From positions 562,672 through 626,671 of the forward strand of contig NC_012440.1 in the NCBI RefSeq assembly GCF_000021565.1: a DNA stretch of 64,000 nucleotides, read 5' to 3'. A program made the position numbers and the translations under genes. Positions 47,751-63,018 of the stretch are shown here, piece after piece (within the stretch, counting starts at the first letter, position 1; each line of letters begins with the position of its first letter). Source of the stretch: Persephonella marina EX-H1. GTDB taxonomy: Bacteria; Aquificota; Aquificia; Aquificales; Hydrogenothermaceae. A model generated the notes under the pieces. It ran no database searches, had not been told where the DNA came from, and saw only the letters and a list, made by a program, of their open reading frames with translations.

Positions 47751-48716
47751 ATGAAGAAATTAAAATTTCTCGTCGCCTCGGTGGCAGGATCATTAACATT
47801 CTCTATGGCAGCATCAGCTGCAGACTTCCTGATCTGGGTGGATGACGCTCACAAGCTATTAGGAAAGCCTGACGTCAGGTTTGTTGATGGGGATTCACCT
47901 AAAAAGTTCAAGGAAGGACATATCCCTGGATCTGTAAATGCATTTGCTCACGATCTCCACTACCTTGAGGATATCAGAAAGTGTGACGGTCTCCCTATGT
48001 GTCCTGATAGAGCTGCTGAGTTTATAGGAAAGGTTCTTGGCATTGATAACAATACAACTGTGATAGCTTATGATGATGGTAGAGGCCCTAACGCATCAGG
48101 TGTATGGTTTTTCCTCTCCCTCTACGGTGTTAAAGATGTAAAAATGATGGATGGTGGATTTGCCACATGGGAAAGTAAAGGTTATGAAGTTGAAAAAGGT
48201 GAAGGCAAAAAGCCATCTCCAAAAACATTCAAGGTTAATGTTAACAGAGATATGATCGCTACTAAAGAGGAAGTTTTAAAGGCTGTTGAGGACATAAAGA
48301 AGAACGGAAAGAACAGCCAGTACTTCATACTTGATGCGAGAAGGTTTGCAGAATATACAGGTAAAAAGCTTTTAGATGCCCTTGAAAAACCAGGAAAGCA
48401 TATAACTGTTGCTAGAGGTGGGCATATTCCAGGAGCTGTTTTCTTTGAGTGGAAAAAGGTTGCTGGAAACTCAAAAGGAAAGCCAGGGAAACATCTTTTC
48501 AAACCATTAAAGAAACTCAAAAAAGCATTTTATAAAAAGTTAGGTAAAAAGGGTCTCACTCCTGACAAAACTGTTATCACATACTGCCATGTTGGTCTCG
48601 GAAGAGGATCGTTTATCTACGCAGCACTTAAACTTGTTGGACATAAGAAGGCTAAAGTTTATGTAGGATCATGGGACGAATGGGGTAACACTCCAGAACT
48701 TCCAGTTGAAAAATAA
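47751..48716 (+). CDS. Exported two-domain rhodanese (thiosulfate sulfurtransferase)
   Basis: The 321-residue protein has a signal peptide (LVASVAGSLTFSMAASAA) and two rhodanese domains, so it works in the periplasm. The C-terminal domain carries the catalytic Cys, C279 in VITYCHVGLGRGS, an unusual loop compared with the common CRxGxT. The N-terminal domain is inactive, with Asp in place of Cys (VIAYDDGRGP near 105-112), as in classical tandem rhodaneses. Two further Cys (C78, C84) lie in KCDGLPMCPD and may form a disulfide. Lys-rich inserts are present near 150-160 and 240-268. It is the first gene of the island, with AGGAGGT six bases before the start. The natural sulfur donor is not known. 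Confidence 0.88.
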   Translation: MKKLKFLVASVAGSLTFSMAASAADFLIWVDDAHKLLGKPDVRFVDGDSPKKFKEGHIPGSVNAFAHDLHYLEDIRKCDGLPMCPDRAAEFIGKVLGIDNNTTVIAYDDGRGPNASGVWFFLSLYGVKDVKMMDGGFATWESKGYEVEKGEGKKPSPKTFKVNVNRDMIATKEEVLKAVEDIKKNGKNSQYFILDARRFAEYTGKKLLDALEKPGKHITVARGGHIPGAVFFEWKKVAGNSKGKPGKHLFKPLKKLKKAFYKKLGKKGLTPDKTVITYCHVGLGRGSFIYAALKLVGHKKAKVYVGSWDEWGNTPELPVEK

Positions 48717-48720
48717 AATC

Positions 48721-48743
48721 AGGGGGGAACTCCCCCTTCCTTT
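48721..48743 (+). terminator. Weak hairpin terminator or processing hairpin after the rhodanese
   Basis: The stem AGGGGG/CCCCCT with a five-base loop is followed by a broken T tract (TTCCTTT). The stem is identical to the strong terminator at 61238. It could lower expression of downstream genes or stabilise the rhodanese mRNA. Confidence 0.5.
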
Positions 48744-48762: not shown

Positions 48763-49902
48763 ATGGAACATATAGATCATCTCTTGATGGGACTGTTGAC
48801 AGGAGCCCTTTTCGGAATAGTGCTTCACAAGGTAGGAGCAATAAGATACTCACGTGTAGAAGGGATGCTTCTTCTCAGAGATCTGAAAATAATGAAATTC
48901 GCATTTATGGGAATAGCAACAGCCTCTCTAATATATGGACTGGCAGATATATTTGGTTTTGCAGAACAGGCTAATCTTATCCCAAGGGTTATGCCTTATA
49001 TGGGAATTGCTCATGTTGTTGGGGGATTTTTATTTGGAATTGCTATGGCATCTGCTGGATTCTGTCCAGGAACATGTGTTGCAAGGGTTGGAGCTGGTAA
49101 ATTCATCTCTATTGCTGGCGTAATTGGATTGATACTTGGTATCATTATCTATGCAAATATACAGCCTATGCTGGTTGAAGTTGGTATTCTTGGTTCAAAG
49201 GAGAAGATAACACTCCACGGTGTTCTCGGTGTTCCTTACGGTGCTCTTGCAGTTGTCTGGGGAGTGCTTTTTATCATATTTGCCCTCCTCGCTGACTGGT
49301 TAGATCCAGCGAGAAAGATGGGACTTGACAGAACTGATGAAAATCTCTCATTAACCGAAAAAGTAATAAAAGGTGAGTGGCACTGGGCTGTATCAGGAGT
49401 TCTTGCAGGATCAATAATTGCATGGGCTACAGCTCAGGGAGAGTATCTTGGGTTTTCCGGTGGTGCTCTTGCTTTTGTAGGCTGGATGTCCCATCTGATA
49501 GGATACCCGATCTCAATAGTTCCAAAGGTTAACGAGACAATTTTATGGCATGCAGGACTGATAATGGGTGTTATACCTGGAGCATTTTTAAGTGCGATAA
49601 TCTCAAGAACATTTAAGTTTGATCCTGTTCCACCTGCTTTTGCAAAGGGAGTGGCTCCATTTCCATGGGTAAGGATGATTCTTGTTTTCTTTGCAGGTAT
49701 TTTCCTGGCACTTGGAGCTATGATAGGTGGTGGATGTACAACAGGTGCTTTCCTTTCAGCATATCCGACACTTTCAGTAGGACCTATGGCAATGTCAGCC
49801 ACATACTTTGCTGTCGGTGTGTTAACAGCGAACCTTATATACTTTGGAAGGTGGAGCAGATTTATTCAGGCTAAGAAAGAGTCTGATCAGGTATATGATT
49901 AA
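48763..49902 (+). CDS. YeeE/YedE-family sulfur-compound transporter
   Basis: The 379-residue polytopic protein has paired repeats of the family. SAGFCPGTCVARVGAGKF (C101, C105) and GGGCTTGAFLSAYPTLSVG are the Cys-containing signatures that guide sulfur species through the pore in thiosulfate-transporting relatives (TsuA). It therefore probably moves thiosulfate or another sulfur anion across the inner membrane. AAGGAGGT precedes the start. Position between two rhodaneses supports the substrate class by inference. Confidence 0.88.
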   Translation: MEHIDHLLMGLLTGALFGIVLHKVGAIRYSRVEGMLLLRDLKIMKFAFMGIATASLIYGLADIFGFAEQANLIPRVMPYMGIAHVVGGFLFGIAMASAGFCPGTCVARVGAGKFISIAGVIGLILGIIIYANIQPMLVEVGILGSKEKITLHGVLGVPYGALAVVWGVLFIIFALLADWLDPARKMGLDRTDENLSLTEKVIKGEWHWAVSGVLAGSIIAWATAQGEYLGFSGGALAFVGWMSHLIGYPISIVPKVNETILWHAGLIMGVIPGAFLSAIISRTFKFDPVPPAFAKGVAPFPWVRMILVFFAGIFLALGAMIGGGCTTGAFLSAYPTLSVGPMAMSATYFAVGVLTANLIYFGRWSRFIQAKKESDQVYD

Positions 49903-49920: not shown

Positions 49921-50079
49921 ATGAGCATGATTGAAAGACTGCTTTTCTGGATAGCAATTTTGATCCTTTCAGTAGCTGTAATCGGTCTGAAAATAGATCT
50001 CTCAAAGCTGGAACAGAAGGCAAAAGAAACTTCCTCTTACACCGTTTCCTCTGAGGATGAAGGAGGTGAAGAAGAATGA
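49921..50079 (+). CDS. 52-residue membrane peptide, unknown
   Basis: A short frame starts at ATG 49921 after GGTAGG and ends with a TGA that overlaps the ATG of the next gene (ATGA, 50076-50079), a sign of translational coupling. The product, MSMIERLLFWIAILILSVAV then IGLKIDLS, has one membrane helix and an acidic tail ending SSEDEGGEEE. It has no Cys. It may be an accessory subunit of the transporter or of the anchored rhodanese. No family is recognised. Confidence 0.7.
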   Translation: MSMIERLLFWIAILILSVAVIGLKIDLSKLEQKAKETSSYTVSSEDEGGEEE

Positions 50080-50576
50080 ATCCTAAGATAGAGAGAATAA
50101 TATACATATCAATTATAGCTATCCTTTCCATTGTACTTTTAGGTTACGGTAAGAAAGAGATAGAACTCCAGAAACAGATACCATTAACAGCTGAGGAACT
50201 TTATAAGAAACTCAGCAATCCAAAAGTCACAATACAGATAATAGATGTTAGACCTTATGAGGTTCCTGAAGAGGAAGAGGATGAAGCTGAAGAGATAGAT
50301 TACTACACAGGAGCTCATATACCAGGTGCGATCCCATTTCCCGATTGTGATGAGTCAAAAACACCTGAAGAGGCTCTTGAGCAGATAAATCCTTATCTTC
50401 CAACTGTTATAGTCTCAAGAGATGGAGATCCTGAAATATTCAAGAGATGTGCCCAGAAGTTCTCTATAGCCCAGAATTTAGCAGGAGGTATAGCAGCCTG
50501 GGATGATGAAGGATATCCTGAGGATGAAGGAGAGTACGAACCACCTAAAGCCGGTGGCGGCGGTGGATGTCTATAA
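50076..50576 (+). CDS. Membrane-anchored rhodanese-like protein with C-terminal Gly5-Cys-Leu tail
   Basis: The 166-residue protein has one N-terminal helix (IIYISIIAILSIVLLGYG), then a rhodanese fold: QIIDVRPYEVP, GAHIPGAIPFPD and NLAGGIAAWDDEGYP. The active loop reads VIVSRDGDP (114-118), with Ser instead of the catalytic Cys, so ordinary sulfurtransferase chemistry is unlikely. An acidic insert (EEEEDEAEE, 65-73) is present. The C-terminus is PPKAGGGGGCL with C165 penultimate, resembling the flexible Cys arm of SoxY or DsrC carriers. It directly precedes the molybdoenzyme alpha gene and probably hands sulfur to it, which is inference. Confidence 0.8.
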   Translation: MNPKIERIIYISIIAILSIVLLGYGKKEIELQKQIPLTAEELYKKLSNPKVTIQIIDVRPYEVPEEEEDEAEEIDYYTGAHIPGAIPFPDCDESKTPEEALEQINPYLPTVIVSRDGDPEIFKRCAQKFSIAQNLAGGIAAWDDEGYPEDEGEYEPPKAGGGGGCL

Positions 50577-50604: not shown

Positions 50605-53514
50605 ATGGCTTTGACAAGAAGGGAGTTTCTAAAAGCCCTGAGCATAACAGGAGCTGGAATCTCAGTTGGTGGAAATGCAGCTTTCGCTAAGGATGCCATG
50701 ATTGTAGAAGATCCAAGAGCTTCATACCCTAACAGCTCCTTTACAGAAAGTATGTACAGAAAAGAGTTCGCCTATACTTACGGAAAGAAAGAGGAACACG
50801 GAACAGCTTACCACTGTGTTAACTGTCAGGGTAACTGTGCATGGGATGTATGGGTAAACAACGGAATCATAACAAGGGAAAATCAGGTTGCTAACTACAC
50901 ACCTATCAATCCTAAAATTCCTGATTTTAACCCGAGAGGTTGTAACAAGGGAGTTCAGCACTCACAGGTTACATATGAAAAGGACAGAATACTCTATCCT
51001 CTGAAAAGGGTTGGAAAAAGAGGAGAAGGAAAATGGAAAAGAATAAGCTGGGATGAGGCTATAACTGAGATAGCACAGAATATATACAGAACAATGCTGG
51101 AAAAAGGACCGGAAGGTCTTTATATCCACGTTGGAGCCGGAATGCTTACAGAAGCAAGAGGTGCAGCTGGAAAAAGACTCGGAACACTTCTTGGAGCTGT
51201 CAGACCTTACATAGCATCTTATGTTGGTGATATGTTCCCGGGAGTTTCGCTTGTCTACGGTGAAGGTAATATAGGATGTTCTTACGACTTCTTCTACACA
51301 ACAGATGTTAATATCTGGTGGGGTCAGGATCCAAATAAAACAAGAATTCCTGATGCCCATTTCGTATGGGAAGGAAAGTACAACGGATCAAAACAGATTG
51401 TTATAACACCTGACTTTAACTCAACATGTATTCATGCAGACCTCTGGGTACCTGTTAAAGCGGGATATGACGGATTTCTCGCAATGTCTATAATAAATGA
51501 GATTCTCGAGAAGAAACTTTACAAACCTAAATTCATAAAAACATTCACCGATCTTCCATTCCTTGTAAGACTTGATAATAAAAAGCTCCTAAGACTTGAG
51601 GATATAGATCTTGAAAATCCGCCTGAGATATTTGATGAAGAGGTTTACCACATTTTTGAAGAAAAAGGCGAGGGTAAAGAGTTTCACCCTGAAGAGACTT
51701 TCTTCGCATGGAACTTAAATAACAACAAGCTTACAGTTATGCCTGGATCTGAAGGTTCACCTGTAAAAACATTAAGACTGAAAGATGTAGGCTGGGATAT
51801 AGATCCTGCACTTGAAGGAGAGTGGGAAGTTAAGCTTAAAGATGGAAAGACTGTAAAAGTAACAACGGTATTTGAGCTTTTAAAGAGAGAAGCTGCAAAA
51901 TTCCCTGCGGAGAAAACATGGAAACTTACAGGGGTTCATCCAAAGATTGTTGAAGAGCTTGCCAAGGATATAGCTCTTCCAAAGGTTGTTATGATATCTA
52001 TGGGATTCACAATCGGTAAGTATTTCAACGGTCTCCTCGCACAGAGAGCTATAGCATCAATACCAGGTCTTGTAGGAAGACTTGGACCTTATGGTGGATT
52101 TAACACAGAAAACGAGTGGTCAATATCAGGAATGGGTAAACTATCGGGATTTTCAGGTAAGTACAAGCAGAGATTTGCCTCAGGATTTACAAGTGAGTTT
52201 GTTTTAGGAGAGATGTTAAAGGATGTTGAAAAACTTTACTCTGATGAGGATATAAGAAGAGCTACAGGTCTTTCTAAAGATGAGTATCTGAAGAAAGTAA
52301 AAGATATGCTAAACAACTACGGAACAGACGAGAAATGGAAGGATAGTATAGGTAAAAAGGACGGTAAACCATACTGGGATACTGTAGAAACATTCCTCAT
52401 ATTTGCTGACTCAAGATTCAGAAGAAATAAAGGTGATACATACAGAGAGGCATTCCTTAAAAAGGCTAAATTCTTTGCGTACGTTGACTGGAGAATGAAC
52501 TCAACTGCTCAGTATGCTGATATCGTTCTTCCTGCAAAGTCTATGTATGAGGTATGGGATATAAGAACAAACCCTGGATACCACAGATATGCCAATATGG
52601 CTCAGCCGCCACAGAATCTTAAACCTGTTGGAGAATCAAAATCGGAATGGGAGATCTGTACACTTATAGTTGAGAAACTTGAGGAGATAGCAAAGAAGAA
52701 GTATGAGGAAACAGGAGATGAGAGATACATAAAAATACCTGATCCAACGCACTCTAAAACAGGATACAGAGAGCTTGATAAGGTTGTTAAGGAGTTCACA
52801 CTTGACGGACATCTCAGAACTGATAAAGATGCTGTTCATCTTGCACTTGAAAATGTTGAGCAGTTTAAACCTAACACATTTGAGACTGTAAGAAAGAGAG
52901 GAGGTTTCCTCCAGCTTAACGAAAAAGGTGGAAAAACATCTCCACTTTATCCAGATAAACCTTACAACTCTTTTGAGAACAACCTTTACCTCTTTGAAAG
53001 ATTTGAAACACTTTCAGGAAGATTAACCTACTATGTTGATCATGATCTCTGGATTGAGGCAGGAGTAGCAGTACCTACAGCGCATGAGCCTATAAGACCA
53101 AGAAGATATCCGTTTGTACTGATGTCACCACACGCAAGATGGTCGATACACTCAACATACAAAACATCAACAATACTTATGAGACTCCAAAGGGGTGTTC
53201 CTTACGTTATGATAAATCCAGAGATAGCTGAGAAGAAGGGAATAAAAGATGGTGACGAGATAAAAGTATTTAACGACCTTGGTGAGTTTTACGCCATGGC
53301 AAAGGTTTATCCATCATGTCCTAAGGATGCGATCATAATAGAGCATGGATGGGAACCTTTCATGTTCAAAGGCAATAAATCTCACAACACTGTTGTTGCT
53401 TCTCCATTAAATCTTCTTGAGCTTTCAGACGGATGGGGACATCTGAAGTTTGGTGGAAACTGGGATGGTAATCAGCACGCATACACAACATCTGTGGATA
53501 TAGAAAAAGCATAA
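50605..53514 (+). CDS. Type II DMSO-reductase-family molybdoenzyme, alpha subunit
   Basis: The frame is open from 50503, but the start is placed at ATG 50605 (969 residues), with AGGAGGT seven bases upstream. There the protein begins with a Tat signal (MALTRREFLKALSITGAGIS). The Fe-S ligands appear as H70/C71, C74, C78 and C113. The Mo ligand is probably D209 in SYVGDMFPGV, matching the NarG/SerA/DdhA/EbdA/ClrA group, whose GQDPNKTRIPDAHF motif is also present. Substrate is unknown; nitrate, selenate, chlorate, dimethylsulfide and hydrocarbons are handled by relatives. The rhodanese and transporter neighbours suggest a sulfur compound. The TAT signal places it in the periplasm. Confidence 0.9.
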   Translation: MALTRREFLKALSITGAGISVGGNAAFAKDAMIVEDPRASYPNSSFTESMYRKEFAYTYGKKEEHGTAYHCVNCQGNCAWDVWVNNGIITRENQVANYTPINPKIPDFNPRGCNKGVQHSQVTYEKDRILYPLKRVGKRGEGKWKRISWDEAITEIAQNIYRTMLEKGPEGLYIHVGAGMLTEARGAAGKRLGTLLGAVRPYIASYVGDMFPGVSLVYGEGNIGCSYDFFYTTDVNIWWGQDPNKTRIPDAHFVWEGKYNGSKQIVITPDFNSTCIHADLWVPVKAGYDGFLAMSIINEILEKKLYKPKFIKTFTDLPFLVRLDNKKLLRLEDIDLENPPEIFDEEVYHIFEEKGEGKEFHPEETFFAWNLNNNKLTVMPGSEGSPVKTLRLKDVGWDIDPALEGEWEVKLKDGKTVKVTTVFELLKREAAKFPAEKTWKLTGVHPKIVEELAKDIALPKVVMISMGFTIGKYFNGLLAQRAIASIPGLVGRLGPYGGFNTENEWSISGMGKLSGFSGKYKQRFASGFTSEFVLGEMLKDVEKLYSDEDIRRATGLSKDEYLKKVKDMLNNYGTDEKWKDSIGKKDGKPYWDTVETFLIFADSRFRRNKGDTYREAFLKKAKFFAYVDWRMNSTAQYADIVLPAKSMYEVWDIRTNPGYHRYANMAQPPQNLKPVGESKSEWEICTLIVEKLEEIAKKKYEETGDERYIKIPDPTHSKTGYRELDKVVKEFTLDGHLRTDKDAVHLALENVEQFKPNTFETVRKRGGFLQLNEKGGKTSPLYPDKPYNSFENNLYLFERFETLSGRLTYYVDHDLWIEAGVAVPTAHEPIRPRRYPFVLMSPHARWSIHSTYKTSTILMRLQRGVPYVMINPEIAEKKGIKDGDEIKVFNDLGEFYAMAKVYPSCPKDAIIIEHGWEPFMFKGNKSHNTVVASPLNLLELSDGWGHLKFGGNWDGNQHAYTTSVDIEKA

Positions 53515-53531: not shown

Positions 53532-54674
53532 ATGTCTAAAAGACAGCTTGCGATGGTTATGGATTTAAATAAATGTATAGGATGTCAGACATGTACAGTT
53601 GCCTGCAAAACACAGTGGACAAACAGAAACGGCAGGGAGTACATGTACTGGAACAATGTTGAAACACAGCCTGGAACAGGATATCCAAGGAACTGGATGG
53701 AAGCAGGAGGTGGATTTGATTCTGAAGGGAATCTGAAAGACGGTATTATCCCTGATATGGTTCTTGATTATGGTGTTCCGTGGGATTATAACCATGATGA
53801 GCTTTTTGGTAATGCTGATCAGACAGTTCTTTCACCTAATACTGACCCTGTTTGGGGACCTAACTGGGATGAGGATGTGGGAGAAGGAGACTGGCCGAAC
53901 TCATACTTCTTCTATCTCCCAAGGATATGCAACCACTGTTCAAACCCCGGCTGTCTTGCTGCATGTCCAAGGGAAGCGATATTCAAAAGAGAGCAGGATG
54001 GTATAGTTCTCGTTGATCTTGATAGATGTCAGGGATACAGATACTGTATAGCAGGTTGTCCTTATAAAAAGATCTACTTTAATCCAAAAATATCAAAATC
54101 AGAAAAATGTATATTCTGTTTCCCAAGAATAGAAAGGGGACTTCCACCGGCATGTGCCCATCAGTGTGTTGGTAGAATAAGATTTGTAGGATTCCTTGAT
54201 GATCAGGAATCTCAGGTTTACAAACTTGTCCATAAGTACAAGGTCGCACTTCCCCTCAGACCAGATTTTGGAACACAGCCAAACGTTTACTATGTTCCAC
54301 CTCTTGAAGGTCCACCGAAGTTTGATGACGAAGGAAAGCCAATAGAGGGAAGTGGAAGAATACCTGTTGAGTTCCTTGAAAAACTTTTCGGACCGGAAGT
54401 TCATCAGGCTCTTAAAACACTTAAAGAAGAGATGGAGAAAAGAAAGAGAGGAGAAGAATCAGAACTTATGGATATTCTTATAGCTTACAACCATGCTGAC
54501 ATGTTCAGACTTGATGAGAACTACTACCAGGGTATAGCTGAGCAGAAAGGCCTTAAAGGAACGGAGTTCTTCAGAATTATTGATGAGAGGTACATTCAGG
54601 GGGCTAACACGCAGAAAGTAGAGGTAAAACAGTACTTTAATGTATCCGGTGTAAATCACAAAGAAAACCATTAA
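53532..54674 (+). CDS. Type II molybdoenzyme Fe-S beta subunit (SerB/DdhB/NarH-like)
   Basis: The 380-residue protein holds four cluster motifs. The first is CIGCQTCTVACKT (C15-C25). CNHCSNPGCLAACP follows, then CQGYRYCIAGCPYKKIYFN with Tyr replacing one Cys (the 3Fe-4S site, Trp in NarH), and CIFCFPRIERG with CAHQCVGRIRFVG. There is no export signal, so it is expected to travel with the alpha subunit through Tat. It passes electrons between the alpha FeS cluster and the haem gamma subunit. It follows alpha by 17 bases. Confidence 0.93.
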   Translation: MSKRQLAMVMDLNKCIGCQTCTVACKTQWTNRNGREYMYWNNVETQPGTGYPRNWMEAGGGFDSEGNLKDGIIPDMVLDYGVPWDYNHDELFGNADQTVLSPNTDPVWGPNWDEDVGEGDWPNSYFFYLPRICNHCSNPGCLAACPREAIFKREQDGIVLVDLDRCQGYRYCIAGCPYKKIYFNPKISKSEKCIFCFPRIERGLPPACAHQCVGRIRFVGFLDDQESQVYKLVHKYKVALPLRPDFGTQPNVYYVPPLEGPPKFDDEGKPIEGSGRIPVEFLEKLFGPEVHQALKTLKEEMEKRKRGEESELMDILIAYNHADMFRLDENYYQGIAEQKGLKGTEFFRIIDERYIQGANTQKVEVKQYFNVSGVNHKENH

Positions 54675-54700: not shown

Positions 54701-55906
54701 ATGAATAGAGGCTTAAAAGCTGGGTTACTTGGATTATCACTGATAGCCTTCACAGCTACAGCCGGAGAAAAGGAGTTTTTTAAGTACGAGGTTATAAATG
54801 GAAAGTACGTTGAGGGAGAGATATCCGCTGATCCGGATGATAAGATCTGGAAAACGGCAAGAGGTAAAGATGTTTATCTCTACCCTCAGATAACTGTAAG
54901 GCTGAACGATAAAAAGGCAAACAGCCTGATACCAAAGAAGAAAAAGGTAACAGCAAGAGTTAAAGTTGTTTATAACAGTAAAAATATAGCTGTTTATGTA
55001 AGATGGAAGGATGATACACCTTCTATCCAGCCTGTTTACGATACAGATGCCTTTGGTGATGGTGTCAGTGTTGAGTTTCCAAACAGGTTTGGAAAAGGTA
55101 TATCACTGCCGTATGTTGGGATGGGTGATGAGAACCATCCTGTAACTGTGTATCTCCAGAAAAATGTGGCAGGAAGGGATTACCAGAAGGTATTTATCTC
55201 TAAAGGTTTTGGATCGCTGACGGAGATAGAGGAAGATGGTGTTGAGATATCAATGAAGTACAATGAAGAAACGAAGGAATGGACAGCTGTTTTCAAAAGA
55301 CCTTTAAAAACGGATATCAGCAATCTGAAATCAGGTCTCGTACCAGTTGCTTTTGCAATCTGGGATGGAGATAAATACGAGAGAGACGGAAACAAGGTTC
55401 TTTCAAGATGGAAGTTTATAAAACTCGGAAAGTTCCCTATAAATGAGGATTATGTAAAGTATGTATCCTGGGGAACACCTTATATTGACTGGTATAGAAA
55501 GGACAGAAAAGAGGATATAGGAGATCCTGTAAGAGGTAAAAAGCTTGCTATAGAAAATGGCTGTAACTCCTGCCACAGATTTGATGACCAGAGGATAGCC
55601 CCTGCCGGTATGGCTCCTGACCTGTCAAATATAGGAGTTATAGCAAATGCTGTATATATAAAAGAATCCATAATCAACCCTAACGATGTGATAATCAGAA
55701 ACCTGAATCTTAACAGACATTACAACAAAGGGGCACAGCCTGATAAATTCAGAGCATACCCTAACAACGATATGTACCAGTGGTACATAATGATGGATGG
55801 CAAAAGACAGTCAAAGATGCCGCCTTTTGATTATCTATCCCAGCAAGATATAAACGATATAGTAGCCTATCTAAAAACATTAAAAAGCTGGAAAAAATTT
55901 AAGTAG
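54701..55906 (+). CDS. Fused haem b gamma subunit and monohaem cytochrome c
   Basis: The 401-residue protein has an N-terminal signal peptide. An ethylbenzene-dehydrogenase gamma-type haem b domain (about 75-255, ARVKVVYNSKNIAVYVRWKD through VPVAFAIWDGDKYERDG) comes next. A C-terminal cytochrome c domain then has the haem motif CNSCH (starting at residue 288) and a likely Met ligand in SKMPPFDYLS. Normal gamma subunits (SerC, DdhC, EbdC) lack the c domain, so this fusion would move electrons from haem b straight to a periplasmic c haem. Genes for the alpha and beta subunits lie just upstream. Confidence 0.88.
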   Translation: MNRGLKAGLLGLSLIAFTATAGEKEFFKYEVINGKYVEGEISADPDDKIWKTARGKDVYLYPQITVRLNDKKANSLIPKKKKVTARVKVVYNSKNIAVYVRWKDDTPSIQPVYDTDAFGDGVSVEFPNRFGKGISLPYVGMGDENHPVTVYLQKNVAGRDYQKVFISKGFGSLTEIEEDGVEISMKYNEETKEWTAVFKRPLKTDISNLKSGLVPVAFAIWDGDKYERDGNKVLSRWKFIKLGKFPINEDYVKYVSWGTPYIDWYRKDRKEDIGDPVRGKKLAIENGCNSCHRFDDQRIAPAGMAPDLSNIGVIANAVYIKESIINPNDVIIRNLNLNRHYNKGAQPDKFRAYPNNDMYQWYIMMDGKRQSKMPPFDYLSQQDINDIVAYLKTLKSWKKFK

Positions 55907-55920
55907 CCGGAGGTATAGGA

Positions 55921-56394
55921 ATGAAAAGGATATTTGCATACATACTCAGCCTTGCATTTCTTTTCTCAGTAAGTCCGGCTGTGGTTTATGCACAGCAGGA
56001 TGTAGCCGTAGATGAATCTGAAGATGATGAAGAAGATACAGTTGAACTTACAAGTGCCGTTATAACCGCTCTCTCCTGTGCAAAAGAAGCTGAGGAAAGT
56101 GGAGAGTTTGAGGTTCTGTCTTCATGCCCACCTATAAAAGCCTGGGAAGGTGTTGAGGATATATATACTCAGCCTCCAAAGATAGTTGTTTTTGATGTTA
56201 CTGAAGGAGAGTACTACTACGTTCAGGCTTCAAAAGACAGTGTTTACTACTCTGATCTTCTTGAGGGTTTTGGTGGAAGTATAGATGGTGAAGGTTCTTT
56301 TGTTGGAGAGAAAGACGGGATAAAGGTTGTTAAGTTTGAGGAGTTTGAGATAACACCTAAACCTAAACCAGGATTCTTTAAAGGCTGTCTTTAA
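55921..56394 (+). CDS. Exported acidic protein with C-terminal Gly-Cys-Leu, unknown
   Basis: The 157-residue protein has a signal peptide (ILSLAFLFSVSPAVVYA), then a strongly acidic stretch (DESEDDEEDT). Three cysteines remain: C53, C69 and C156. The C-terminus reads PKPKPGFFKGCL. The GCL ending is shared with the anchored rhodanese in the same operon. No family is recognised. The flexible Pro/Lys segment before the penultimate Cys could be a carrier arm for sulfur. It lies between the type II gamma subunit and the second molybdoenzyme. AAGTAGCCGGAGG precedes the start. Confidence 0.7.
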   Translation: MKRIFAYILSLAFLFSVSPAVVYAQQDVAVDESEDDEEDTVELTSAVITALSCAKEAEESGEFEVLSSCPPIKAWEGVEDIYTQPPKIVVFDVTEGEYYYVQASKDSVYYSDLLEGFGGSIDGEGSFVGEKDGIKVVKFEEFEITPKPKPGFFKGCL

Positions 56395-56417: not shown

Positions 56418-57053
56418 ATGAGACTGGGCTTTTTGGTTGATCTAAGTAGATGTATGGGGTGTATGGCCTGTGCTGTTGCCTGTAAGGCAGAGAATGACGT
56501 TCCGCTACACAGCTGGAGGTTAAGGGTTAAGTACATAGATCAGGGTGAGTTTCCGGATGTAAAAAGGCATTTTGTTCCTTTAAGGTGCAATCACTGTGAA
56601 AACGCACCATGTGAAAGGATATGTCCTGTAGGAGCTCTCCACTACCTGCCAAACGGGATTGTGAATGTGGATCACAACAGATGTATAGGATGTGCTTCAT
56701 GTATGATGGCATGTCCATACAACGCTATATACCTTGATCCTGTAACCAACTCAGCTGACAAATGTACATACTGTGCACACAGAATTGAAGTTGGAATGAT
56801 GCCTGCATGTGTGGTTGCTTGTCCAACACATGCGAACATCTTTGGAGACCTTGATGATCCTGAGAGTGAGATATCAAAATACCTTAAATCACACAGGGAT
56901 GTTATGGTGAGAAAGCCTGAACTTGGCACAAAACCAAAACATTTCTACGTTAGAGGTTCAACTGTTGCTCTTGATCCTCTTGCTTCTGAAAGACCTGAAG
57001 GATTTACACTGTTTACAGAAGTTAAGTTTTTAGACCATATAGGAGGGCATTAA
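56418..57053 (+). CDS. NrfC/TtrB/PsrB-type Fe-S subunit
   Basis: The 211-residue protein carries four [4Fe-4S] motifs: C12-C22 (CMGCMACAVACKAE), C57-C69, C89-C99 (CIGCASCMMACPY) and C116/C119 with C131/C135. It has no leader peptide. In this family it links a membrane NrfD-type subunit to a molybdoenzyme catalytic subunit. The following two genes provide exactly these partners. AAGGAGGG precedes the start, and the stop codon is 2 bases from the NrfD gene. Confidence 0.93.
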   Translation: MRLGFLVDLSRCMGCMACAVACKAENDVPLHSWRLRVKYIDQGEFPDVKRHFVPLRCNHCENAPCERICPVGALHYLPNGIVNVDHNRCIGCASCMMACPYNAIYLDPVTNSADKCTYCAHRIEVGMMPACVVACPTHANIFGDLDDPESEISKYLKSHRDVMVRKPELGTKPKHFYVRGSTVALDPLASERPEGFTLFTEVKFLDHIGGH

Positions 57054-57055
57054 TA

Positions 57056-57940
57056 ATGTTAGGAGCTGAAGTTACCTTTGATGTTGCATTACCTAAGGTT
57101 ATATGGGGATGGCTTGTTTCAACAAATATGTGGGCTAAAAGTATAGCCACAGGTACGTTCCTTGTTGGACTTTACTTTGTGATCAGATATCCTGAAAAGG
57201 ACAACTTCTTCAGAAAATGGATTCCTATCCTTGGACTTATATTCATAGGTATAACTTTACTTGTTACAGTTCTTGATCTTCACCATATGTTCAGATTCTG
57301 GAAGATATTTGTTCATGCCCACTTCACATCAGCTGTAACACTTGGGGCATGGGTTGTTTCAGGATTTGTGATAGTTCTTCTTTTATCTTTCTGGTCATGG
57401 GCAACAGGAAACAGAAAACTGTTTGACAGAATAATGATCCCTGGATTCATACTTGCATTTTTCTCAACAATATACACAGCAGGTATTATGGGACAGGCAA
57501 CAGGAAGGGAGATATGGGTTTTTCCTGCTGAGATGATATCAATGCTTTTAAGTGCGACACTTGCAGGATCTGCAGCATTCCTCTTTATTGACAGAATCTA
57601 TAAGTATGTGCTTGATGATCAGATAAGAAGAGAGCTTGGATATATACTCTTCTCAAGTGCAGGTCTGCTTTCAGCACTCTATATTGGGGAGCTTTTCTTT
57701 GCAAAGATGCACAGTGAGTTTTCCTACGAGGTTGTTAAAATACTTGCATTCGGAGATGTTGCTCCATTTTTCTGGTTAGGTCTGGTGTTTGGGTTTATAA
57801 TCCCGATGATTTTAGTAGGTGTAGCTACAGAGAAGAGAAAAGGTCAGTATGCTTTCCTTGGATCTCTGAGTGCTTTAATTGGTCTGTGGCTTATAAAACA
57901 TGCATGGTTAATAGCACCACAATATTTACCACTAAGTTAA
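57056..57940 (+). CDS. NrfD/PsrC-family membrane quinone subunit
   Basis: The 294-residue protein has about eight hydrophobic helices and an NrfD layout: WLVSTNMWAKSIATGTFLVG near the N-terminus, a conserved HHMFRFWKIF segment, and IPMILVGVATEKRK near the end. It exchanges electrons with the quinone pool and anchors the complex. No haem-binding His pairs typical of NarI-type cytochromes are needed. It lies between its Fe-S subunit and catalytic subunit, the B-C-A order also seen in ttrBCA. Confidence 0.9.
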   Translation: MLGAEVTFDVALPKVIWGWLVSTNMWAKSIATGTFLVGLYFVIRYPEKDNFFRKWIPILGLIFIGITLLVTVLDLHHMFRFWKIFVHAHFTSAVTLGAWVVSGFVIVLLLSFWSWATGNRKLFDRIMIPGFILAFFSTIYTAGIMGQATGREIWVFPAEMISMLLSATLAGSAAFLFIDRIYKYVLDDQIRRELGYILFSSAGLLSALYIGELFFAKMHSEFSYEVVKILAFGDVAPFFWLGLVFGFIIPMILVGVATEKRKGQYAFLGSLSALIGLWLIKHAWLIAPQYLPLS

Positions 57941-57958: not shown

Positions 57959-60900
57959 ATGAGAACGAGCAGGAGAGATTTTTTAAAAGGTGTTGCCACT
58001 GTAATTGGTGGAGCAGCATTTGCTAAAGGTGTTGTTGAAAAAACTGTAAGTACAGCAAATGCCGGTGTTAAAGAAGATATAACATTCTTCCCTGAACATA
58101 TAGATTACTATCCACCATTTGAGAAATGGAATGACTGGAAAGAGCCGGAAGGTGCATACTGGAAACAGAAAGGTGGTGCACTGAGAGATGGTGTGAAGAT
58201 GATCAACTATATGATAGTTCCAACTGTGTGTAACAACTGTGAGGCTGCATGTGGTCTTACAGCGTGGATTGATAAGGACAATATGGTTATAAAGAAATTT
58301 ATGGGTAACCCTTTCCACTCTGGAAGTAGGGGAAGAAACTGTGCAAAGGGTTATGCAACATTAGCACAGACATACGATCCTGATAGAATACCTTTCCCAT
58401 TAAAAAGAGCTCCCGGATCTAAAAGGGGAGAAGGGAAATGGGTTAGAACTACATGGGATGAAGCGTTAGAAACAATAGGAAAAAGAATGAGGGAGACCCT
58501 GAAAAGGGCTATAAAGGAAGGAGATGAACTTGCTAAAAAGATGGTTATGTACCATGTTGGAAGACCGAACGAGTCAGGTGGTTTTACAGCGAGGGTAGTC
58601 TGGTCTTGGGGTGTTGATGGACATAACTCTCACACAAATATATGTTCAGCAGGTGGAAGACTGGGTGCTATAGCATGGAGTGGTGATGACAGACCTTCGC
58701 CTGATTTTGCAAACTCAAGACTTATATTCCTTTCTGCTTCACATGCAGCAGATGCAGGGCACTACTTCCAGCAGCATGCGGGATACATAGCTGATGCAAG
58801 GGCAAAAGGTGCAAAACTTGTTATAATGGATCCAAGACTTTCAAACTCTGCCGGAATGGCTGATCTTTGGCTTCCAGTATGGCCTGGAACAGAGGCTGCT
58901 GTTTATCTCTCAATGATAAGCAGGCTGCTTCAGGAAGATAAGTACAACAGAAAATTTATGGAAAGATGGGTAAACTGGAAAACATTTATAAAGGACAAAG
59001 AGTATCTTAACTACCTTCTAAAAGAGGGAAGAATATCAAAACTTCCTGAAGGTGAAACATTTGATGATTTTATAGCTGTTTTAAAGGATCTTTACAAAGA
59101 TTACACATTTGAGTGGGCTGCTGAAGAGACAAAAGTTCCTATAGAGAGACTTGAAAAACTTTATGAGCTTATACTCTGGGCAGGAGACAGGATAACATCT
59201 TACTTCTGGAGAGCTCAGGCTGCAGGTAACAGAGGAGGATGGATGTCAGCAGGTAGGACAGGATACTTCCTCCTTGTTGTTACAGGCTCAATAGGTGGTG
59301 TTGGTGCAAATGGATGGCATCACTGGCATGTCCTCGGTGTTGGTGGAAAAGGTGGAAAGGCTACATTAAAGGAAAAGCCTGATCCTGTTGATGCCTGGAA
59401 TGAGCTTTTATGGCCACCAGAATGGCCTTTATCAACATACGAACTTTCATTCCTGCTTCCACATCTTCTAACAGACGATCAGTGGAGAAAGAAATGGGCT
59501 GAAAGAGGCCTTAAGATACCTGACAAGCTTGATGTATGGATCTTTAAAATCTACAACCCTGTATGGATTAACCCTGATGGATTTAAATGGATAGAGGTTC
59601 TCAAAGATGAGAACAAGATGGGACTTACTGTAAACCTATCCCCAACGTGGTCTGAGACAAACTGGTTTGTTGATTATATACTTCCTGTTGGTCTGGCAGG
59701 TGAGAGACATGACAACCAGTCAGCTGAAACAAAACCTGAAAGATGGACGGCTTTCAGACAGCCTGTCTTAAGGGTGGCTCTCAAGAAGATGGGATGGGAA
59801 CCTAAGGTTCCGTGGAGAGCAACACTTGAAGCCCATAAAAAGGTTGGACTCGGTGAGGTATGGGAGGAAAATGAGTTCTGGATAAATCTTGCATGGGCTA
59901 TAGACCCTGATGGTGAGCTTGGAATAAGAAAGTTCTATGAATCAAAGAAAAATCCAGGAAAACCTGTAACTATAGAAGAGTGGTACGACGCAGCATTCGG
60001 AACACTTCCAAACCTCAAGAAAATCTGTGAAAAACTTGGAACATCTCCATATGAGTATATGAGAGATAGAGGGGCCTGGACTGAAGAGACAGATGTTTAC
60101 AATGTTCATGAAAGGGAGATCCCTTACGATCCAGAGAAGGATGCATACAAATATAAAGGAAAATGGATACCAAGAAGCAAACTTGCTGTTGATCCTGACT
60201 CAGGAGCTGTTTATATAAAAGGACATGGAGATGAACTCCACTCTGAAAGACACACAATAGGTGTTATGAGAGATGGTAAACTCCTTAAAGGATTCCACAC
60301 ACCAACAGGTCTTTTAGAGTTCTACTCAAAAACATTTGTTGAGTGGAACTGGCCTGAGTACGCAATCCCTTATTATCCAAGAAACAGAGAGGAGAGAAAG
60401 AAACTTGTCCATGTTGTTACACATGTCCACCATGATTATATGACTGAGCCAAACGCATTTGTTCTCAACCCGATTTACAGACTTCCTTACAACATCCATA
60501 CAAGGTCTGTTAACGCAAAATGGCTTATGGAGATATCACAGAACCACAACCCTGTCTGGATAAACGAGGCTGACGCTAAAAGACTCGGTATAAAGAGAGG
60601 AGATGCTATAAAACTCCGTGTAGTTGATACAGTGTCAGGTATAGAGGTTGGATACTTTGTGGGAATGGCAATACCTACACAGGCTACAAGACCGGGAGTT
60701 CTCGCATGTTCTCACCACTCAGGAAGATGGAGAGTTGTAGACACAGTAAAAGTGGATGGATTTAACCAGGAACTTGGATTTAACAGATACGGAACAGCTT
60801 TAGTTGAGATCCATAACTCCGGACCTGTCTGGGCTGCAAGATGGAAGTCAGGTGTTAGATCATTCAAGGTAGAGAGAAAACATGGAGATAAAAATCTGAA

Positions 60901-61234
60901 ATGGCCATATCCAGAGTTTAACAAGGATATGAAAGAGGTATGGTGGAATGGTGCTTCAGGTGTATGGCAGAATGCTGTCTTCCCTGCAAACCCAGACCCA
61001 CTTTCAGGAATGCACTGCTGGCATAAAAAGGTTCTTGTAGAAAAAGCAGGTCCTAACGATAAGATAGGAGATGTTGTTGTAAACACAGAAGCGACATTTA
61101 AGGTATATCAGGCATGGAGAGATCAGCTCACAAGACCAGCACCGGGTCCAAACGGTCTGAGAAGACCAAAGTGGTTCAAAAGACCTTGGTATCCACACAC
61201 TGACAGTGCTTACAGAATGAAAAAATCACATTAA
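57959..61234 (+). CDS. Tat-exported molybdopterin oxidoreductase catalytic subunit (TtrA/PsrA/SoeA-like)
   Basis: The 1091-residue protein starts with a Tat signal (MRTSRRDFLKGVATVIGGAA). The FeS cluster ligands are C91, C94, C98 and C128 (CNNCEAACG and GRNCAKG). The probable Mo ligand is C229 in THTNICSAGGRLG-like SHTNICSAGG, so the ligand is Cys, unlike the Asp type upstream. A molybdopterin-dinucleotide domain follows (ETKPERWTAF, NPVWINEADAKRLG). Family membership is clear, but tetrathionate, polysulfide, sulfite and arsenic enzymes all share this outline. A terminator hairpin follows the stop. Confidence 0.9.
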   Translation: MRTSRRDFLKGVATVIGGAAFAKGVVEKTVSTANAGVKEDITFFPEHIDYYPPFEKWNDWKEPEGAYWKQKGGALRDGVKMINYMIVPTVCNNCEAACGLTAWIDKDNMVIKKFMGNPFHSGSRGRNCAKGYATLAQTYDPDRIPFPLKRAPGSKRGEGKWVRTTWDEALETIGKRMRETLKRAIKEGDELAKKMVMYHVGRPNESGGFTARVVWSWGVDGHNSHTNICSAGGRLGAIAWSGDDRPSPDFANSRLIFLSASHAADAGHYFQQHAGYIADARAKGAKLVIMDPRLSNSAGMADLWLPVWPGTEAAVYLSMISRLLQEDKYNRKFMERWVNWKTFIKDKEYLNYLLKEGRISKLPEGETFDDFIAVLKDLYKDYTFEWAAEETKVPIERLEKLYELILWAGDRITSYFWRAQAAGNRGGWMSAGRTGYFLLVVTGSIGGVGANGWHHWHVLGVGGKGGKATLKEKPDPVDAWNELLWPPEWPLSTYELSFLLPHLLTDDQWRKKWAERGLKIPDKLDVWIFKIYNPVWINPDGFKWIEVLKDENKMGLTVNLSPTWSETNWFVDYILPVGLAGERHDNQSAETKPERWTAFRQPVLRVALKKMGWEPKVPWRATLEAHKKVGLGEVWEENEFWINLAWAIDPDGELGIRKFYESKKNPGKPVTIEEWYDAAFGTLPNLKKICEKLGTSPYEYMRDRGAWTEETDVYNVHEREIPYDPEKDAYKYKGKWIPRSKLAVDPDSGAVYIKGHGDELHSERHTIGVMRDGKLLKGFHTPTGLLEFYSKTFVEWNWPEYAIPYYPRNREERKKLVHVVTHVHHDYMTEPNAFVLNPIYRLPYNIHTRSVNAKWLMEISQNHNPVWINEADAKRLGIKRGDAIKLRVVDTVSGIEVGYFVGMAIPTQATRPGVLACSHHSGRWRVVDTVKVDGFNQELGFNRYGTALVEIHNSGPVWAARWKSGVRSFKVERKHGDKNLKWPYPEFNKDMKEVWWNGASGVWQNAVFPANPDPLSGMHCWHKKVLVEKAGPNDKIGDVVVNTEATFKVYQAWRDQLTRPAPGPNGLRRPKWFKRPWYPHTDSAYRMKKSH

Positions 61235-61237
61235 TAC

Positions 61238-61259
61238 AGGGGGTTTATCCCCCTTTTTT
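61238..61259 (+). terminator. Rho-independent terminator between the second catalytic subunit and torD
   Basis: The stem AGGGGG/CCCCCT with loop TTTAT is followed by TTTTT. It lies between the catalytic gene and torD, so it probably attenuates rather than ends transcription of the island. Confidence 0.8.
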
Positions 61260-61270
61260 AGAGGTGGAAG

Positions 61271-61900
61271 ATGGAAAAGTTTAATGAGCTACAGGCAAGA
61301 ATAAATATGTACGGTTTCCTTTCAAGACTTCTCATTGAGGAGATAGACGCTGAAACATTAAGGAAGATCAAAAATAACGAGGAGATACTTGATCTATTCC
61401 CAAATACAAAACAGTGGGATCTTTTCTGGGAGAAAGACGAGAAAAAGCTTATAGAAGAGGATCTTAATGTTGATTTTACAACGGTGTTTTTACTTAATGT
61501 ATATCCGTATGAATCGGTTTTTATACATGATGAAGGACATATAAATCCAACTGTAACGAATCCTACACTTATCTTTTACAGAGAACATGGGTATTCCATT
61601 GATCTGAATAAAACAAGAGCCCTCTCTCCTGATCACATAGCTGTTGAGATGGAATTTATGATGAACCTTATTCAGGAAGAGCTTGATTCTTTAAAAAAAG
61701 AGAATGAGAATGAAGCAAAAAGATTAAGAAATATACAGAAGAGATTCCTTGAAGAGCATCTTGGAAGCTGGGGACCTGTCTATCTTATGGCTGCAAGAGA
61801 TATGGCTGAAACACCTTTTTACTACGATGTATGCCAGCTTGCACTTGATTTTATCCTCTCTGATTACGAGTACCTGGCTGAGGAGATGGAGGTTGTATAG
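61271..61900 (+). CDS. TorD/DmsD-family molybdoenzyme chaperone
   Basis: The 209-residue all-helical protein shows the TorD-family signature, with ALSPDHIAVEMEFMMNLIQE at about 116-135, and a C-terminal acidic helix. Such chaperones bind Tat signals and guard molybdenum-cofactor insertion. Two Tat-exported molybdoenzymes precede it in the same direction, so either or both may be its client. GAGGTGG precedes the start codon. It lies after the terminator hairpin. Confidence 0.88.
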   Translation: MEKFNELQARINMYGFLSRLLIEEIDAETLRKIKNNEEILDLFPNTKQWDLFWEKDEKKLIEEDLNVDFTTVFLLNVYPYESVFIHDEGHINPTVTNPTLIFYREHGYSIDLNKTRALSPDHIAVEMEFMMNLIQEELDSLKKENENEAKRLRNIQKRFLEEHLGSWGPVYLMAARDMAETPFYYDVCQLALDFILSDYEYLAEEMEVV

Positions 61901-61935: not shown

Positions 61936-63018
61936 ATGAGCCAGTTGAGAGTAAGTCTTAATTTCCATAACTGTACACATGTCTACTACAGGGACTCCTC
62001 ATGCTCAAAATGTGTGGATGTCTGTCCTGTAAAAGATGCCATATATTTTGATGAGGGAAAATTAAAGATAGATGATGAAAAGTGTGTTAACTGTGGTGCC
62101 TGTTTTGGTATCTGTCCTACAGAAGCTTTCTCCGTTAATGGTTTCTCCCCAGAGAAATTACTGGATCATCTTGTAAAATCAGGAGAAACGGTTATAAGCT
62201 GTAGGGTTAATGTTCCATGTATAGCAGCCCTCGATTCCCAGTATCTTATATCTCTGGTTTTAAGATCTGAGAAAGACATTTTTCTTGATATATCAAGGTG
62301 TGATGAATGTGGTATATCATCATTAAAAGGAAGAATACAGGATATCGTAAATGAAACAAACTACTTCCTTGAATCAGCAGGTGTTGACAGAAAGGTTTTA
62401 CTCAGCAGAGAGGATATACAGCTAAAAAGATCTGAAACTAAAGATAGAAGGGGATTTTTAAAAGATTTTGGTAAGATCTCAGCCGGTCTTGCATTCTGGG
62501 CTTTAATGCCTGAGATTGACCATGAAGAGAAGGAAGAGGAGGATTTTAAAAATATAGTTGAGGAAAAGGTTCTTCCTGAGAAAAGGAAGATTTTAATAAA
62601 AACATTAAAAAACTGTGGTGATGCCCTAGAAAATAGAGTTCTGGAAGTGGACAGGATCTCTTTCTGTTCTGATAAATGGATAGATAACAGGCTGTGTACA
62701 AACTGTTCAGTATGTTACAACATATGTCCAACAGGTGCTTTAAAACCTGGAAGAGACAGACTCCAGATACTTTTTGAACCTTCACTGTGCGTAAAATGTA
62801 AGATATGCCATGAGTCCTGTCCTGAGAACTGTCTTCATCTAGAGGAAAAGCTCAGCTTTGATACATTTCTAAATGGAATGAAAATTCTTGCTGAACATGT
62901 GATGATACCATGTGAAGAATGTCTTGTTCCTTTTTCATACAAAGGTGATTCAACGGTCTGCCCGCGGTGTAAACAGCTTGATGACGAGATAAGGGATCTT
63001 CTTAAAATAGGAGACTGA
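61936..63018 (+). CDS. Polyferredoxin with internal twin-arginine-like motif
   Basis: The 360-residue protein has two ferredoxin halves. The first (CSKCVDVCP and CVNCGACFGICP) lies at about 23-60. The second (CTNCSVCYNICP and CVKCKICHESCP) lies at about 255-300. The C-terminal segment contains two CxxC pairs (CEEC and CPRC), like a rubredoxin-type knuckle. Between the halves, RRGFLKDFGKISAGLAFWAL at 171-190 looks like a Tat signal but is internal, which is odd. It may be a membrane hook or a remnant. It probably passes electrons for the molybdoenzymes. It is the last gene before a 136-base gap. Confidence 0.78.
   Translation: MSQLRVSLNFHNCTHVYYRDSSCSKCVDVCPVKDAIYFDEGKLKIDDEKCVNCGACFGICPTEAFSVNGFSPEKLLDHLVKSGETVISCRVNVPCIAALDSQYLISLVLRSEKDIFLDISRCDECGISSLKGRIQDIVNETNYFLESAGVDRKVLLSREDIQLKRSETKDRRGFLKDFGKISAGLAFWALMPEIDHEEKEEEDFKNIVEEKVLPEKRKILIKTLKNCGDALENRVLEVDRISFCSDKWIDNRLCTNCSVCYNICPTGALKPGRDRLQILFEPSLCVKCKICHESCPENCLHLEEKLSFDTFLNGMKILAEHVMIPCEECLVPFSYKGDSTVCPRCKQLDDEIRDLLKIGD

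Follow-up and report, generated by a model that had tools for sequence, protein, structure and literature searches.

Two unrelated proteins encoded in one operon of Persephonella marina EX-H1 were found to end in similar, invariant arms with a penultimate cysteine, one on an anchored rhodanese-fold protein without catalytic cysteine (RhdG, a working name) and the other on the exported protein P157. Judged from their sequences, they suggest a new pair of sulfur-carrying arms that work outside the cytoplasm and serve molybdenum enzymes in these thermophilic bacteria, which use sulfur; this is plausible but unproven. The window to which coordinates refer is the whole stretch of 64,000 nucleotides analyzed.

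RhdG and its C-terminal arm

The features of RhdG are as follows.

50076..50576, forward strand: RhdG, TM-anchored rhodanese-fold protein of 166 aa with Ser in the active loop and a Gly5-Cys-Leu tail
50097..50150, forward strand: predicted membrane helix, approximately residues 8-25 (helix predicted 3-34), hydrophobic stretch IIYISIIAILSIVLLGYG
50346..50348, forward strand: Cys91 (P-[DNG]-C-D), body Cys, invariant in orthologues
50415..50429, forward strand: active-site loop S114-R-D-G-D118, Ser at the position of the catalytic Cys
50448..50450, forward strand: Cys125, body Cys, invariant in orthologues
50553..50573, forward strand: arm G160-G164-Cys165-Leu166, invariant, model pLDDT ~36 (disordered)

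The Rhodanese family of Pfam (PF00581) matched residues 38-144 above its cut-off (E=3.4e-9), and comparison of the predicted model with rhodaneses gave a Foldseek E of ~1e-5 at a probability of 1.00. The body is a confident rhodanese fold. The active loop reads VSRDGD and contains no cysteine, and the chain ends in PPKAGGGGGCL with Cys165 as the penultimate residue. Translation, predicted N-terminal helix, cysteine-free loop and Gly5-Cys-Leu end all agree with a preliminary description of this frame as an anchored rhodanese lacking its catalytic cysteine. From the N-terminal helix and the exported partners we infer that the domain faces outward from the cytoplasmic membrane.

Orthologues gathered from two genome collections comprised 30 distinct sequences, all from Hydrogenothermaceae, with pairwise identities of 47-100%. 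Serine is found at position 114 in 30/30 of them, where an active sulfurtransferase requires the catalytic cysteine that heads the loop, and Gly117 is equally invariant. The two cysteines present besides Cys165, C91 and C125, which the preliminary description left out, are both invariant as well and could form a disulfide in an exported domain. The five glycines G160-G164, C165 and L166 are 100% invariant, with exactly five glycines preceding Cys-Leu in every sequence; no orthologue was found to lack the cysteine or the glycine arm on which the preliminary description had built its proposal of a sulfur carrier. Nowhere else in the protein is an invariant run as long as these terminal seven columns, and an all-invariant end would be expected by chance at ~5e-5, given 43/166 invariant columns. 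Three to four synonymous codons are used at each of the five Gly positions, two at Cys and three at Leu, and since the codons vary in this manner, selection acts on the peptide and not on the DNA. On the evidence of this alignment the arm is under purifying selection at the peptide level. The same synonymous variation rules out a DNA-level repeat as the origin of the Gly run. An origin of the tail as by-product of an overlap with the frame of the following gene, MoA, was also ruled out, as the MoA frame opens only after the RhdG stop in relatives, loci L002 and L004 among them.

Among 391 genomes from 261 genera, no homologue of RhdG or P157 was found outside Hydrogenothermaceae, and a search of a plasmid collection likewise gave none. 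One weak match (genome G086) was rejected, being a 313-aa rhodanese frame not accompanied by the operon. The depth of conservation is limited, because every homologue belongs to one bacterial family (lowest pairwise identity 47%). Literature searches of open-licence papers retrieved no description of the operon or of the tails.

The operon and its second arm

RhdG is gene 4 in a run of 13 genes, the order of which is the same in every relative with a sufficiently long locus. The genes are, in order:

47751..48716, forward strand: Rhd2, exported two-domain rhodanese, catalytic C279 (CHVGLGRG) invariant in 28/28
48763..49902, forward strand: YeeE/TsuA-like sulfur channel, C101, C105 and C325 invariant in 29/29
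49921..50079, forward strand: 52-aa single-TM peptide, Cys-free, its stop overlapping the RhdG start
50076..50576, forward strand: RhdG
50605..53514, forward strand: MoA, Tat-exported catalytic subunit of the type II DMSO-reductase (DMSOR) family; nearest solved relatives 4ydd chain A and ethylbenzene dehydrogenase
53532..54674, forward strand: MoB, type II DMSOR iron-sulfur subunit (TIGR03478, above cut-off)
54701..55906, forward strand: fusion of an EB_dh heme-b domain and a c-type cytochrome (CNSCH)
55921..56394, forward strand: P157, exported, family without match, with C53, C69 and a C-terminal PKPKPGFFKGC156-L (arm GFFKGCL at 56371..56391, forward strand, invariant in orthologues)
56418..57053, forward strand: four-cluster Fe-S subunit, TtrB/ArrB/NrfC-like
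57056..57940, forward strand: NrfD-like quinone-interacting membrane subunit, assigned from position and multi-TM sequence
57959..61234, forward strand: Mo2, Tat-exported molybdoenzyme of a PhsA-like complex; nearest solved structure thiosulfate/polysulfide reductase 2vpw
61271..61900, forward strand: TorD/DmsD-type chaperone, assigned from position and size
61936..63018, forward strand: ferredoxin-type multi-cluster protein, assigned from Cys motifs

As assigned here, the setting of RhdG is one of sulfur trafficking plus molybdoenzymes. MoA retains the H-x3-C-x3-C...C cluster site. In Rhd2, which is periplasmic, Asp replaces the catalytic Cys of the first domain and the second domain is intact. 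The channel gene occurs in tandem in two relatives, with two copies at L010 7550-9800 and three at L012 6398-9800 instead of one. G+C-rich hairpins with T-rich tails after Rhd2 (48722-48735) and after Mo2 (61238-61254) are possible attenuators, on the basis of a consensus scan only.

P157 has a signal-peptide-like N-terminus and ends in PKPKPGFFKGCL. It has no match in Pfam or NCBIfam; its model is confident, small and beta-rich and found no counterpart in the PDB at E<0.001. Sequence and fold comparisons gave no support to P157 being a diverged rhodanese. Across 32 distinct orthologues GFFKGCL is invariant, together with P146, K147, P148, K149, C53 and C69, and the tail follows the pattern PKPK(P/A)GFFKGCL. 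When the tails of RhdG and P157 are aligned at their C-termini they have G-x3-G-C-L in common, extended to P-K-A-G-x3-G-C-L in some relatives. A DNA pattern search of the genome (1.98 Mb, two contigs) for G-x3-G-C-L followed by a stop gave six matches, of which only RhdG and P157 lie in real genes, the remaining four falling in frames shorter than 45 aa or with an internal stop. By a post hoc estimate, such an end would be expected at ~1e-5 per protein. Like arms on two unrelated proteins of one operon are best accounted for by a partner or a chemistry that both share. The arm of P157, which goes beyond the preliminary description, is in our view the strongest new evidence for a function common to both arms.

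One relative (G025, locus L101 9394-12022, G025:C1) carries a deletion of ~970 bp that fuses codon 23 of the TM peptide to codon 122 of MoA, removing all of RhdG and the first 121 MoA codons, including the Tat signal and the cluster region. The channel, Rhd2, the second Mo complex and an intact P157 with its tail are retained. In another relative (G031, L102 13522-15631) MoA is rearranged, and P157 and the second Mo complex are intact.

Possible functions of the two arms

Based on these features, the C-termini of RhdG and P157 are most likely mobile persulfide (or sulfonate) arms. More specifically, RhdG may be a silenced rhodanese turned membrane-tethered sulfur carrier that is loaded by Rhd2 and docks onto MoA, with P157 as a second carrier; we hold this full scheme to be evenly poised between right and wrong. 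The anchor would keep RhdG in the cytoplasmic membrane with its domain outside, where Rhd2 would use its intact site, Cys279, to load sulfane sulfur onto Cys165. On the disordered Gly5 arm, Cys165-S-SH could then enter a narrow active site, and of the possible hosts of this site the type II DMSOR-family enzyme encoded next to RhdG is the most likely. The sulfur would be oxidized at MoA, and the electrons would exit via a chain of Fe-S clusters, heme b and cytochrome c. P157, encoded between both Mo complexes, would be the second carrier and probably either shuttles sulfur between the two or supplies the PhsA-like complex. MoA is favored as the dock of RhdG because it is adjacent, because the cytochrome c domain suits an oxidation, and because the deletion in G025 takes both; this last point is weak support, as it concerns a single event in which RhdG was perhaps lost merely as the neighbor of MoA. 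To our knowledge, no member of the type II DMSOR clade that has EB_dh subunits is known to use sulfur bound to a protein carrier as substrate. The proposal of the preliminary description, a sulfur carrier that docks onto a molybdoenzyme, is partly supported.

The strongest rival to a dock at MoA is delivery to the YeeE/TsuA-like channel, where Cys165 would exchange sulfane sulfur at the periplasmic mouth and RhdG would feed or unload sulfur import, as part of one membrane unit with the channel and the 52-aa TM peptide. RhdG follows directly after channel and TM peptide, the start of its gene being overlapped by the stop of the latter, the channel has the invariant Cys 101, 105 and 325, and similar gene company is seen at SoxT1A of Hyphomicrobium (PMC11582611). 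Gene order cannot pick the dock, because MoA is equally adjacent. However, P157 has the same kind of arm and its gene lies between those of the two Mo complexes, and G025 keeps the channel and Rhd2 but loses RhdG with the start of MoA; we regard delivery to the channel as possible but unlikely. Lower probabilities are given to two further possibilities. The tails may be structural, with Cys165 and Cys156 of P157 joined by a disulfide across the two proteins, serving jointly as ligands of a metal or heme, or attached covalently in some other way, so that the exported complex is held together, as would suit the same terminal motif on two operon proteins with exported partners, each with two invariant body cysteines. 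A disordered five-Gly arm would, however, be unusual as a rigid ligand, P157 has an intact tail in G025 despite the loss of RhdG (a loss that looks recent), and we know of no C-terminal sorting or lipidation signal that ends right after Cys-Leu without a following TM, which makes this explanation a rather improbable one. Slightly less credible still is a relocated nucleophile, whereby the arm folds back and Cys165 takes the role of the missing cysteine in the loop with Ser114 on the same domain, making RhdG a rhodanese with a tethered nucleophile. The rhodanese core shows no decay and has kept Ser114 and Gly117, and ~15 linker residues would be long enough to cross the domain, but the model places the tail nowhere with confidence (pLDDT ~36) and the arm of P157, a protein without rhodanese fold, would be left unexplained. 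Finally, the last residues could be a processing or recognition peptide that is removed, as in sulfur-carrier precursors exposing a Gly-Gly end, and some ubiquitin-like sulfur carriers do end in Gly-Gly-Cys-hydrophobic. Yet RhdG has no ubiquitin-like fold, and the equally invariant F-K-G-C-L end of P157 has no Gly-Gly, so removal of the tail is highly improbable.

If RhdG and P157 are sulfur carriers as proposed, a rhodanese domain would have been converted from an enzyme into a carrier, and the penultimate-Cys arm would have arisen on two or more unrelated folds in addition to those of SoxY and DsrC. In truncated Sox systems without SoxCD, the fate of the carrier-bound sulfane sulfur is open. 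None of 41 genomes of the family (0/41) has a SoxC above the family cut-off, and SoxY was found in 27/41, including P. marina EX-H1, where it is encoded elsewhere in the genome; there is thus a real gap for an alternative sulfane-oxidizing Mo enzyme. A conserved operon that encodes two putative carriers with such arms as well as two molybdoenzymes, and occurs in a family lacking a recognizable SoxC, is a concrete candidate for the fate of this sulfur. The larger claim, that in Hydrogenothermaceae a two-carrier extracytoplasmic system, in which the arms of RhdG and P157 deliver to DMSOR-family molybdoenzymes, functionally replaces SoxYZ-SoxCD, is plausible but unproven, and we consider it doubtful at present.

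Comparison with known systems

The parallel drawn in the preliminary description with the C-terminal Cys arms of SoxY and DsrC holds in its geometry and extends to TusE, since the cysteine is penultimate in the chain ends of DsrC/TusE (PKPTGCV in solved DsrC chains aligned with TusE, and PKPVKCI) and in the SoxY end of the family (VTIGGCG). In DsrC, persulfuration occurs exclusively at the penultimate cysteine, and the protein itself shows no rhodanese activity (PMC3397948), while the swinging arm of SoxY bears the intermediates of the Sox pathway (PMC5336275). As in DsrC/TusE (PF04358), the chains of RhdG and P157 close with a hydrophobic residue preceded by the Cys of a probably mobile C-terminal arm, P157 also showing the pattern PKP...GC[LVI]. 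However, DsrC/TusE proteins have another fold and are cytoplasmic, whereas RhdG is anchored, probably exported and has only a Rhodanese match in Pfam, and the second cysteine of DsrC, 11 residues before the penultimate one, is missing in both P157 and RhdG (invariant Tyr154). SoxY of SoxYZ (PF13501) is a periplasmic carrier with a single, penultimate Cys on a Gly-rich arm (GGGGGCL in RhdG, VTIGGCG in SoxY), but it too has another fold; RhdG and P157 do not match PF13501, and no SoxZ was found among the operon genes scanned. The sulfane dehydrogenase SoxCD is a Mo and cytochrome c enzyme that oxidizes sulfur bound to a carrier arm, in principle the same job as proposed for the MoA complex. SoxC, however, is a sulfite oxidase family protein, and MoA is a type II DMSOR-family protein and not a SoxC. 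With single-domain sulfurtransferases (PF00581; SseA 1urh, BH2092 3nhv) RhdG shares fold and core motifs, but differs by the invariant Ser in place of the loop Cys, the anchor and the Gly5-Cys-Leu arm. A metallopterin-dependent ergothioneine synthase, considered as a parallel, was rejected for its different architecture.

Among gene neighborhoods, that of the YeeE-like SoxT1A of Hyphomicrobium denitrificans includes a 56-aa TM protein without Cys together with a rhodanese and a periplasmic thioredoxin whose very C-terminus bears a Cys motif, and SoxT1A was proposed to receive sulfur from a periplasmic carrier (PMC11582611). The channel of the present operon similarly adjoins a 52-aa Cys-free TM peptide; in the SoxT1A neighborhood, however, molybdoenzymes of the kind found with RhdG are not described, the rhodanese is cytoplasmic, and the protein with the C-terminal Cys is a thioredoxin with Cys-x2-Cys. 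Sulfur disproportionators have MOLY and YTD clusters that also resemble the operon, the former in exported molybdoenzymes with TorD and the latter in a YedE channel with sulfur carriers, but YTD has TusA and DsrE, an arm-bearing rhodanese is described in neither, and both were described in other phyla (PMC12998232). By its sequence, RhdG is not a homologue of SoxY or DsrC; its arm is convergent with theirs and sits on a rhodanese body that has fallen catalytically silent. Together with P157 it is a putative addition to the already known class of sulfur carriers with a C-terminal Cys arm.
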